From the NCBI GenBank assembly GCA_004292605.1, contig RDXK01000102.1:1-44736 (forward strand): a stretch of DNA of 44,736 nt. Direction: 5' to 3'. Positions 23,477-27,300 of this stretch are shown piece by piece; the first letter of the stretch is position 1; each line of letters starts with the position of its first letter. Origin of the DNA: Bacteroidota bacterium. Lineage in GTDB: Bacteria; Bacteroidota; Bacteroidia; Chitinophagales; Chitinophagaceae. Both the position numbers and the translations under genes were made by a program. Under the pieces are notes generated by a model. It was not told the origin of the DNA. It saw nothing but the letters and a program-made list of their open reading frames with translations, and ran no database searches.

Positions 23477-23635
23477 ACTCTACAGGGTTTGCTTGCTTGA
23501 GTTGCAAATATAATTGATTGCCGATAAACTGACCTATATGCCACCCATGCTGAACTACATACCCTGAATTTTGTTAAAATAGCCGTAAGCACAACCATGT
23601 ACCCTAGTTTTACGTACATGTATAAAATTACCAGC

Positions 23636-24193
23636 ATGAAATACTTAGTTTTTGCCGCATTAATAGGCTTTGGCAGTAGCTGCCAAGGGCAGGCCACCAA
23701 AATGAATAACCAAACAAAAAGTAAAAAAATGGATACCACTAAAAACCCTGTGTACAACCGTGCCGATAGTAGTACGGTACAATTAAGCGATGAGGAATGG
23801 AAAAAAGTACTATCGCCAGAAGTGTTTTATATAGCCCGCCAAAAAGGTACTGAAAGGCCCTTTACAAGTAAGTTTGAAAACTCGAAAGAAGTAGGTACTT
23901 ACTACTGTGCCGCCTGTGGTAACGCTTTATTTAAAAGCGATACGAAATTTGAAAGTGGCTGTGGCTGGCCTAGCTTTTATGAGCCTATAAGCAAAGGAGC
24001 CATTATTTATACGCCCGATAACAGTCATGGTATGCAGCGTACCGAAGTACAGTGTGGCCGTTGTAAAGCACATTTAGGACATGTGTTTGAAGATGGACCA
24101 AAACCCACTGGTTTACGCTACTGTATTAACGGTGTAGTTTTAGATTTTGAAAAGGCAAAAGAGGCCGAAAAGCAGTACAATAAAAAAGGATAA
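23636..24193 (+). CDS. msrB: Methionine-R-sulfoxide reductase B, lipoprotein form
   Basis: The ATG at 23636 (MKYLVFAALIGFGSSC) is chosen because it begins a lipoprotein signal with lipobox Cys16. 185 residues. SelR/MsrB domain: zinc pairs CAACG and CGRC, GCGWPSFYEP substrate region, and catalytic Cys163 in RYCINGVVLDF. Reduces the R form of oxidised methionine in envelope proteins. It is followed by the RNA-like element at about 24.21 kb. Confidence 0.93.
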   Translation: MKYLVFAALIGFGSSCQGQATKMNNQTKSKKMDTTKNPVYNRADSSTVQLSDEEWKKVLSPEVFYIARQKGTERPFTSKFENSKEVGTYYCAACGNALFKSDTKFESGCGWPSFYEPISKGAIIYTPDNSHGMQRTEVQCGRCKAHLGHVFEDGPKPTGLRYCINGVVLDFEKAKEAEKQYNKKG

Positions 24194-24213
24194 GCCAGTA
24201 CCAAAGGCAGTAT

Positions 24214-24311
24214 GCCTGCGTTAGGGATAGCAACGGAAAGCCCGGAACCCTTACAGCCATGTAGGGGTGAGAACTTGGAGTGAATAGCCCGACCCCTTGT
24301 GGGTAACGCCC
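24214..24311 (+). ncRNA. Probable structured RNA / recurrent Bacteroidota intergenic element
   Basis: A GC-richer stretch in an otherwise AT-rich gap. An outer stem GCGTTA (24218-24223) pairs exactly with TAACGC (24304-24309). Inside are hairpin CCCTTACA (24248-24255) with TGTAGGGG (24260-24267, one G-U) and hairpin ACCC (24292-24295) with GGGT (24301-24304, competing with one base of the outer stem). Two near-copies of a short motif, AAAGCCCGG and ATAGCCCGA, flank the central hairpin. From memory, elements with GGAAAGCCC and ATAGCCCG recur between genes in many Bacteroidota genomes; I cannot name an Rfam family with confidence. It could be a small RNA, an msrB 3' UTR element or a mobile repeat; orientation is assumed. 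Confidence 0.55.
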
Positions 24312-24323
24312 AATATAAAAAAG

Positions 24324-24359
24324 AAAGGCCGCAGCTGATACAACAACTGCGGCCTTTTT
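24324..24359. terminator. Strong bidirectional terminator
   Basis: Eleven-base perfect stem AAAGGCCGCAG (24324-24334) with CTGCGGCCTTT (24347-24357), 12-base loop, T-run on the plus side and T-rich run on the minus side. It ends the msrB/RNA unit and, in reverse, the TolB-like gene. Confidence 0.85.
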
Positions 24360-24386: not shown

Positions 24387-27300
24387 CTAAAAATCGATAC
24401 CCATAGCAAAATAGGAAACGGGCGAACCGCTGAAGAAACCGCTCATGGGCCAAGAAACATCAAACTTTAGGAAGTAGCCTAACAAAGTGCTACGAGCACC
24501 AAAGCCATAACCGCCGGCAAACGGACCGATACCACCAGCACGAATATTTACCGTGAGTGGGTTAGTACTGCTTAGCTGACCAAATGTTTGGCTTGGGCGG
24601 GCAATATTGCCTATGCCCCCTAACCATGCCGTACCTAAATCGGTAAACTGCACTAACTGCAAATTACGCAGGAAGGCATTGTTTACGGGCCTATTAAAGA
24701 AGGTAGAAAATATGGGTAACCGAAACTCGCTATTAAATACCATAGCATTGTTACCACGCTCTAAATTTTGGTTATAGCCACGCATGTTAATGGCTAAGCT
24801 TTGGAAGGCCACGGTAACATCGGTAGGTGGTGGAGCATTGTTAAAACGTGGGTTTATCCATCCATCTACACCACCTAAGTAGTACAGAATTTTAGCATCA
24901 CCAAAACTGAAATCGCCAGCGGCACGGCCCGCCCAAATAAAGTTGCGATAAATAGGTATGTACTTTCGCACATCGTACCCAATATTATAGGTTTGCTTAC
25001 CTCGTAGGCTACTGCCTTTGCCGGTAGGCATATTCATATCAATATAAACTTTATAGCGTAGGCCATTCCAAATATTGAGGGCTTTGTTGATGGTATTATC
25101 GTGTACATATTCAAAGCGGGTAACTATAGAACTACCTACGGAATCGGGGATACCAAGGCCGGCCCTATCAGGATCACCAGTGAAAATATTGAACGGGCGA
25201 ATAACGCCTCTATCTGTACGGTAGGCCACGGTGGCTCTAAAGCTTTTTACTTCATTCAGGGGTAAGGTAGCGTTAAGCTGGTACAAACTAGTGATCATGT
25301 TGTTACCATAACGGGCGTTAACACCGGTAAAAAAGTTTTGGAAATTGGTAATATTGCTACGGTAGTAGGTAACACCCCAATCTATTTTCCGGCGTACGTT
25401 TTGGAAGCTCAAAAACACATCCTTATCGCGTAGGCTGTTAAACCCTAAACGGTAGCCGCCTATGAATTTAATATCTTCCAGTAAATCGCTTACACCTACT
25501 CTAAAGCTCCAGTTTAAATCGTTACCGTTGTTTAACTGTATGGGGCCAGCACCACGGGCATAGGGCTGGTAGCGGTTAATAAGTATATTATTGGTGATAC
25601 CTGCCAAAACAAAATCGGTACTAAATTTCAGTCGGTAATTAAATAGTTTGCTTTGCTGTAGTGTGTTAGGTTTTACTTGTACCAAACCGCCGGTGCGTGG
25701 TAGGTTATTAATAACACTATCAGCAGCATCGTCTTCAAATCCGTTTTGAAAAACTTTAGCCTTTATTTTATCGGCTTGTGGTAGCGGTGCGTAAGGATTG
25801 CCCATTCTATCGGTACCGCCACTATTATTATCAAAACTGGTGGCCCTAGCTTGCTGTATTACTTTACGCATATAATTGCTGGGTACTGCGTTGATATTTC
25901 TTTTGCGTAGGGTGCTACTATCTACCCGTAGTTTGTACAAATACTTATCGGTACCCTCTTGCCGCGTTTCAGTAACCAAACCTTTATCGCCTGCTATACG
26001 GGTTTCTATCAAGTTAGTAGCGTAGTTAGTAATAGGAAAAGTATAGGTACTATCCTTAAATACTTGAAAAAAGCTTACGCTATCGGGCTCTTGTTTGTTC
26101 CAGGCAGCAAGGGTGCTATCGAATTCTTTGGCGGATGGATTTCTTAACAATTCTTCACCGATATAATACAGCGTATCTACGCCATTACGGGCCGTGCTAA
26201 AAAAGCCTGCCCAGCGGTTAGCAATACCATTTTCATCGGCCACAAAAGTGAAGTGATTATTATTGTACTGCATGGGAAAGCGAGCATTGCCGTAAGTAAG
26301 GTTGGTAAGTTGGCTTACTTGTTTTAAATCGCTTTTATTAAAATTATCTATCAAAAACACATTAAAATTATATCGACTAGGTAAAACGGTATCGGCATTT
26401 ACCGCATTAGAACCTGGGCGATTACTGGAGAACAATATACCGCTACGGTTAGGGAAACTTACAAACGAGGGATTCAAATCGTCGTACACATCGTTGGTCA
26501 TTTGTGTAAGCTTGTTTCGCTCTATATCGTACGTGTAAATATCGGAGTGGCCGTTTTTAGTGGCACTTAGCAATAGTGTATTAGCATTGAGCATAAAGCT
26601 AGCATCTAACACCTGATCTACATCGGTAATTACTTGTTTAAAGCGTTTTATTTTGGCTACCACATCGTACACAAACATATTGATGGCTCCTTCCTTCCAG
26701 TAAAGTACTAGTAAACGTGTGCCTTTATTATCCCATGCTAAAATGGGGTAATTGGGGTTAATATCGCCCTGGCGGGTACGTACACCATAGCTTATCAGGG
26801 TTTTAGGATCTTCATAATTCAGCACCAATTTAGCACTGTACACACCCTTGTTAAATTCTACATAAGCATAATCGTTGCTTTTAGGATTGGGGTTGGCTTG
26901 AAAGCGGAAGAAATCTTTCTTAGTTATATCTTCTACAATGCTAAGCTTGCCCTTAGGGGTGTTTTTACGCTTTTTTATATCCTCGGTGTATTTGGTGTTT
27001 TGGTATTCCATAAACTCCTTCAATACATCCTTAAATTTCTTCTTGCAAATTTTATAACTGGCGCTGTTTAGGTTTTTATACAAGCGAGCTAGGTATAGGA
27101 AATACCCTACGTTTTCTCGTTTATACACTTCATCTATATACCACCAAAAGGCATGACCCGCCAATTCGGGTTTTTCAAAAGCAAACTGATAAAAGTTTTT
27201 ATAAGTTTCGCCCAGCATGGCATTTTTAAGAGCATCGTCGCGTTCCACACTCCATCTTTCGGCTACGTAATAAATATAGCCTTCGGTGAGCCATTTGGGT

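Follow-up and report, generated by a model that had tools for sequence, protein, structure and literature searches.

What is the compact structured element that stands just downstream of msrB in contig RDXK01000102.1 of a Chitinophagaceae bacterium, and does it belong to that gene, to an RNA family or to a repeat that moves? The original prediction placed here an exact outer stem, at least one internal hairpin and a repeated AGCCCG-type motif, in a gap without genes before a strong terminator. In the analysed window (the whole stretch of 44,736 nt) the two arms of the outer stem are indeed perfectly complementary, the internal hairpin has 9 bp, and the motif is found as GGAAAGCCCG at 24235-24244 and as GAATAGCCCG at 24282-24291. 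The gap, too, holds no ORF of 60 codons or more between the end of msrB (24193) and a convergent ORF ending at 24387. The strong inverted repeat is also present, but the terminator scan scored it as a terminator on the minus strand only, because part of the T run falls inside the stem when the plus strand is read; this part of the description stands for one strand. The features of the locus are:

23597-24193, plus strand: msrB (SelR domain, PF01641; Pfam match), the upstream neighbour
24209-24298, plus strand: match to Rfam Flavo-1 (RF01705)
24218-24311, plus strand: complete type-A Flavo-1-like element (GCGT...CGCCC), 94 nt
24218-24223, plus strand: P1 outer stem, 5' arm GCGTTA, exact complement of 24304-24309
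24224-24290, plus strand: P2 long hairpin, composed of GGG/CCC, A.G, TA/AT, a GNA/GNA loop, AC/GT, a GGA/GNA loop, AAG/CTT, C/G and a variable apical hairpin
24230-24232, plus strand: internal-loop strand 1, G-N-A, facing 24282-24284
24235-24237, plus strand: internal-loop strand 2, GGA, facing G-N-A at 24277-24279
24247-24268, plus strand: P2 apical hairpin, 9 bp with loop GCCA (minimum-free-energy fold)
24293-24303, plus strand: P3 small hairpin, CCCC-TTGT-GGG
24304-24309, plus strand: P1 outer stem, 3' arm TAACGC, followed by two conserved C
24324-24357, no strand assigned: inverted repeat/terminator between convergent genes, outside the element

The element beside msrB is real. Its folding energy is unremarkable (z = -0.68; 52 of 200 shuffles fold as well) and was dropped as proof of structure; what lifts the element above chance is homology, to Rfam and to its BLAST copies, together with covariation. 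Its ends were set by the match to a covariance model, R1 (model positions 1-86), and by agreement with an exactly copied 78-nt unit of Rufibacter; the R1 score was 75.4 bits, the window copy being one of the 65 R1 training sequences. Among the consensus pairs examined in this copy, 17 of 18 are Watson-Crick, the broken one being 24242/24272 (C-A), and at 24233/24281 the consensus G-C pair is replaced in a compensatory manner by A-T. P3 is identical in the own-genome copies L001-L008 and takes a different form in L018 and L019.

Relationship to Flavo-1

A scan of the whole window gave no Rfam match above a family's cut-off. At open threshold the best match to the element was Flavo-1, with 31.3 bits over the whole model (positions 1-76) and an E-value of 4.5e-5 that holds for the 251 bases searched. 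Because this score is below the curated cut-off of 42 bits, the window copy is, judged by its sequence, a Flavo-1 relative formally outside RF01705. The model gave 15 matches in the same genome, four of them passing the cut-off (51.5-69.1 bits). The earlier view that no Rfam family could be named is therefore superseded by the existence of a named relative.

Window copy and Flavo-1 have in common a core hairpin with conserved, G.A-rich internal loops, an occurrence in Bacteroidetes and a high number of copies per genome. The window copy adds the closing stem P1 and the third hairpin P3, both beyond the 76-position Rfam model, and reads AGCCCG where the Rfam consensus reads AGCGGG. We refer to the common extended form as type A (GCGTKAGGGAT..., the long hairpin, AGCCCG, the small hairpin and MACGCC(C)) and to the AGCCCCGAT...AGCGGGA copies of genome G018 as type B, the Rfam model spanning the core only. 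Flavo-1 dates from 2010, when it was described as a candidate RNA found in Bacteroidetes (Weinberg et al. 2010, PMC2864571), and PMC9029176 gives no function for it. Among the titles and opening lines of abstracts found on Bacteroidetes repeats and on Bacteroides leading regions, mostly of open-access papers, none presents Flavo-1 as a repeat that moves or as a site on plasmids.

Covariation of the folded strand

Compensatory change in the outer stem (24218-24223/24304-24309), proposed as a check of the original description, was found in homologues. At least 123 copies matched the pattern, and among those listed 107 had a recognised 3' end; alignment A1 contains 65 type-A copies, namely 64 distinct ones out of 100 usable under a length limit, and the window copy. 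The search pattern fixes A1 columns 1-4, 6-11, 13, 15, 16 and 18-27, so that A1 is uninformative on variation there. The fifth P1 pair covaries in all 65 copies, with 35 G-C, 30 T-A and no mismatch, the pattern having limited its two positions to G/T and A/C with the combination left free. Core pair 12 occurs as all four Watson-Crick types and is mismatched in 2 of 65. In each internal loop the pattern fixes one strand, 24230-24232 in the first loop, and leaves its partner free. The first loop has G.A in all 65 copies and A.G in all but one, with a free middle base, and over both loops no G.A or A.G position is kept in fewer than 64 copies.

The R1 model returned 83 matches, 79 of them distinct, from loci that were mostly not chosen by the pattern. 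Two-sided changes were seen in 15 of 16 pairs and summed to 129 compensated cells, a level reached in none of 500 shuffles, although the alignment is fitted to the model, which favours the count. Together the alignments show that one strand of the family carries a conserved, covarying predicted structure composed of P1, P2 with its G.A-rich loops, and P3.

Pairing in the R1 set is Watson-Crick in 1194 of 1231 cells, with 16 G.T and 9 A.C, and in type B in 423 of 429, with 3 G.T. A TPP riboswitch control (30 sequences from relatives, with their own RNAalifold structure) had 23 G.U against 84 compensated cells, compared with 16 against 129 for Flavo-1 (p = 0.03). The scarcity of G.U pairs leans weakly towards pairing at the DNA level, and we did not retain it as proof. 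Single-stranded DNA forms stable G-N-A/G-N-A loops in which the pairs are sheared. A literature search for support of such loops in single-stranded DNA gave nothing useful.

Copies across genomes

By BLAST the element has 14 matches within its own genome (best E 5e-14; the last four with E > 1). Flavo-1 was detected at E <= 0.01 in 10 of 29 genomes, the own genome included, one of them with 110 matches, and R1 found between 1 and 96 copies per genome among 38 named genomes, both sets of counts being lower bounds. The recurrence of such motifs in Bacteroidota, stated in the original prediction, was borne out, the window-type pattern occurring in at least 119 stretches of one-genome-per-species data and a Bacteroidota taxon being named in 78 of 80 titles among the matches listed.

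Copies within one genome proved more alike than copies from different genomes, at least in their apical loops: among 31 copies, drawn from the 12 genomes that have at least two named copies each, apical loop likeness was 0.69 within and 0.40 between genomes, with none of 500 label shuffles as high, and likeness of the 60-nt 5' flanks was 0.61 and 0.55, respectively.

Some copies had unusual forms. Short ones (L120:4375-4420, L179 and L181) lack the stretch that separates the two AGCGGAWAGCCCG motifs, which fits an inter-repeat deletion, and type-A copies were found in tandem or nested at L159 and L163. Flavobacterium cyanobacteriorum (L375-L378, loci masked in part) has several identical copies with about 50 nt of common 5' flank and 3' A runs of varying length.

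Copying and persistence at individual sites

The prediction had suggested a family of small RNAs or of RNA-level mobile elements, and Rufibacter genomes fit the mobile part of it, whether at RNA or at DNA level. A 78-nt unit is present there as four letter-identical copies in one genome (G209) and two in another (G049), with largely different surroundings: the 100-nt flanks of the six copies are 0.49-0.71 identical over 15 pairs, the top value belonging to the 5' flanks of L437 and L438, which both contain part of another repeat. At the L437 site the element is absent from all 13 other Rufibacter genomes having both flanks. It was found in 0 of 11 other genomes at the L383 site and in 1 of 13 at the L382 site, matches to other repeat families being left out of these two comparisons. 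Identity and flanks thus show a precisely bounded 78-bp unit that was evidently copied to different Rufibacter sites. By eye, no target-site duplication is common to the six copies, and no clean insertion of a single element was seen in the Rufibacter comparisons. At L437 and L382 the regions with the element exceed most of those without it by several hundred bases, a difference larger than the element itself, and they contain other repeats as well. Identical dispersed copies could in principle also arise by gene conversion.

Copies can also persist, as shown by the sequences of one Flavobacterium site compared across 28 species. The element was present in 15 and not in 13 of them, presence being scored by motif search and one locus scored absent (L246) resembling a remnant; the tree needs 7 changes, at least 4 of them by well-supported branches. 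Identity over the 15 copies is 0.82 in the element against 0.62 and 0.72 in the flanks and 0.58 for a shuffled flank. This higher conservation suggests that a kept function or gene conversion may maintain the copies, which are therefore not only noise. At one orthologous Flavobacterium site (L225-L241), P3 is replaced wholesale between species with a hairpin retained, which points to exchange between copies.

Setting relative to genes and flanking sequences

Its position between the msrB stop codon and the terminator would suit an element that regulates msrB and other genes in cis or stabilises their 3' ends. At 19 other msrB loci of relatives, all full length, none had the element within 1.5 kb of msrB. 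Among 106 named copies, ORFs of 80 codons or more, many of them probably spurious, overlap 31, and another 6 are at the edge of a contig; the remaining 69 were classed as convergent (21), sense (18), antisense (14) or divergent (16), without clear preference for gene ends or sense orientation. Given the 0 of 19 loci and the lack of a preferred orientation, the link to msrB and its terminator is accidental, and a cis-acting role of this kind is very improbable.

The same indifference to neighbours would be expected of genes with their own promoters, and Flavo-1 is classed in Rfam as 'Gene; sRNA'. The family could accordingly be imagined as independent small RNA genes, spread by duplication and acting in trans, for which the compensated structure also speaks. 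Against this, the promoter-like sequence TANNTTTG is not enriched in 96 upstream flanks (8 sense and 10 antisense occurrences; shuffled mean 7.2), and 5' flanks are unconserved past about 3 nt. In Flavobacterium psychrophilum, according to the relevant part of PMC9723704, Flavo-1 matches seem to lie indistinctly sense or antisense to transcripts and many lie outside them, and this relation to transcripts gave no real functional clue. An own promoter or terminator around the element was rejected for lack of enrichment, and we consider a small RNA gene family quite unlikely.

On the 3' side the element is often followed by CAAA (86, 64, 70 and 83% per position). Heptad tandem repeats of the types GTTCTGA/GTCTTGA, GAATTAG/GAATTAA and ATCATTA/ACCATTA, with a period of 7 exceeding shuffles, occur near copies, in the 3' flanks of L435, L438, L440-L446 and L448 and in the 5' flanks of L078 and L394, and are possibly akin to the TAACTGA repeats of PMC4679880. 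With a looser threshold they were found in Rufibacter on the 3' side of 6 of 16 copies and on the 5' side of none of 16, and elsewhere in 7 and 8 of 97. Little was left at the strict threshold and many repeat matches lie away from the element, and the heptads were discarded as a 3' tail.

Search for a mobilising enzyme

High-copy palindromic intergenic repeats are known in bacteria as REPs, moved with RAYTs or, for CGTC REPs, found without a transposase (passages of PMC3733652 and PMC6006769). A REP-type repeat moved by a RAYT/Y1 transposase could draw on the Y1 proteins encoded in 15 of the 22 genomes searched and on the RAYT subclass 2.6 of Bacteroidetes, which the text consulted in PMC6006769 describes as flanked by its own atypical structures. 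R1 matches occurred, however, in just 2 of 30 Y1 loci, both weak. The 7 genomes without a Y1 match include the isolate genomes G062 and G046, with 44 and 27 copies, and the repeats flanking 11 RAYT-like genes examined were, where readable, other than Flavo-1. No Y1/RAYT transposase therefore accompanies the element in this systematic search, which covered Y1, and such a partner was rejected. The element is longer than the 20-40 bp of REPs, does not lie beside Y1 genes or flank a RAYT gene, and showed by eye no GTAG or CGTC foot in its flank composition; the REP-type explanation has hardly any probability left.

Pairs of neighbouring copies might enclose the gene of an autonomous version; in the ORFs of 8 of 20 such regions no recurrent gene was seen by eye. 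Terminal inverted repeats with a target-site duplication, as in a classical MITE, were not found, terminal pairing being limited to 5-6 bp.

The flanks of the RAYT-like genes L268, L269, L276 and L283 carry repeats such as CACTGGCGCAAGTCT/AGACTTGCGCCAGTG (L269, L283), distinct from Flavo-1. Copy L002 adjoins a repeat resembling those around the RAYT-like gene of the window's own genome.

A probable dispersed mobile repeat

Taken together, the window feature is probably a single member of a dispersed repeat family of Bacteroidota that is mobile but non-autonomous and is related to Flavo-1. The relationship to Rfam, covariation, copy numbers, orientations, Rufibacter copies, apical loops and carriage on plasmids (below) argue for it; the failure to find an enzyme in a systematic search of Y1 transposases, the missing target duplication and clean insertion, the persistence in Flavobacterium and possible gene conversion argue against it. 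In such a scheme an enzyme supplied in trans would recognise the folded single strand, either single-stranded DNA or RNA, and would copy or move it without visible target-site duplication. The window copy would have inserted itself between msrB and the terminator of that gene, and its transcription there is probably passive.

In behaviour, the only level of this comparison, the repeat resembles the ERIC/IRU sequences of enterobacteria, likewise structured, dispersed intergenic repeats of about 100 bp (PMC2759123, PMC2229807); it differs from them in belonging to another phylum and in its structure, which has a third hairpin, G.A loops and a stem that closes the whole. Remarkable as the family is, the copy in the window is an ordinary one. 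A candidate small RNA motif known since 2010 thereby gains defined ends, an extended structure and a testable copying behaviour.

Plasmid and phage copies

A consensus-like copy matched 82 plasmid records by BLAST, all from Bacteroidales genera, at 84 places. Of 13 inspected contigs that are plasmids or resemble them, 10 have the element upstream of an ArdC or RadC gene and in the orientation opposite to that gene; the assignment was made with Pfam for seven of these genes, the gene tables of PLSDB being incomplete (the ArdC gene of L474 is absent from the PLSDB annotation and was found on search).

ArdC (L474, L475, L476, L520): element upstream in opposite orientation, at 348-859 nt in L475, L476 and L520
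RadC (L473, L477, L521, L522, L523, L471): element 204-275 nt upstream in opposite orientation
Neither gene found (L478, L524, L472): L472 has only 476 nt on that side

This arrangement is the best lead on how the folded form acts. It recalls the Frpo/ssi promoters of plasmid leading regions, which in the material seen from PMC11541004 are likewise structured and upstream of anti-restriction genes on conjugative plasmids. The element could correspondingly be a single-strand DNA site for DNA processing, comparable to a Frpo-like promoter or a primosome/ssi site, where the entering plasmid strand would fold and RNA polymerase or primase would start, giving early ArdC/RadC expression or complementary-strand synthesis, the chromosomal copies being dispersed derivatives. 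Besides the plasmid records and the ten gene arrangements, the few G.U pairs (16 in 1231 cells) and the strand favour this: on L475 (MOBP) and L476 (MOBB), which have different relaxase types, the strand that folds would be the first into the recipient, assuming from mob gene position that these genes are transferred last, and R1 detected a second copy on p5482/L476 on the same strand.

Other observations weigh against such a site. The RadC cases are near-copies of one module and L474/L475 belong to one plasmid family, so that independent contexts are few. Plasmid pBFY46 (L525) has ArdC without the element; on pBACSA01 (L479), which also has ArdC, the sole match is partial and weak; and three of the inspected contigs show neither gene. 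In L477 and L523 the nearest mob genes predict the opposite transfer strand. In the 125 loci that surround non-plasmid copies (119 from genome contigs and 6 viral contigs) ArdC was found in none and RadC in 2. No TAnnTTTG motif was seen inside the element in the eight cases examined, and 21 of 51 chromosomal copies lie on the G-rich strand, without GC-skew bias, in a test that is weak because skew in 20-kb windows is small. In a Microviridae record the copy lies on the strand opposite the capsid genes. Unlike the Frpo/ssi sites, the element has no recognised -10/-35 mimic and is also dispersed in chromosomes, and its strand evidence is partial. A site of this kind as the whole explanation is unlikely.

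A combined form retains the mobile repeat and joins it to the plasmids: Flavo-1 and its type-A relatives would be folded single-stranded DNA sites and not RNA genes, serving conjugative plasmids of Bacteroidales as a strand-specific entry element (a promoter or primer site on single-stranded DNA) upstream of anti-restriction genes and dispersed in chromosomes across the phylum as a mobile repeat by an enzyme acting on single strands. We regard it as doubtful, and put it forward tentatively. If the plasmid reading is true, an entry element for single strands can be recognised on plasmids of gut Bacteroidales. Annotations that score Flavo-1 matches as non-coding RNA genes would need re-examination.

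Carriage by phages is rare (4 and 2 stretches in IMG/VR; 3 of 50,697 phage records), and two of the three phage-record matches look like plasmids by gene content. The Microviridae copy is at L470:22-89, and records related to L470 align only elsewhere in the query stretch. On the plasmid contigs, a second motif, AAATCTCCAKCC...GGTAGTATTT, apparently inside an inverted repeat, was seen by eye between the element and the ArdC or RadC gene in L476, L520, L473, L477, L521, L522 and L471.
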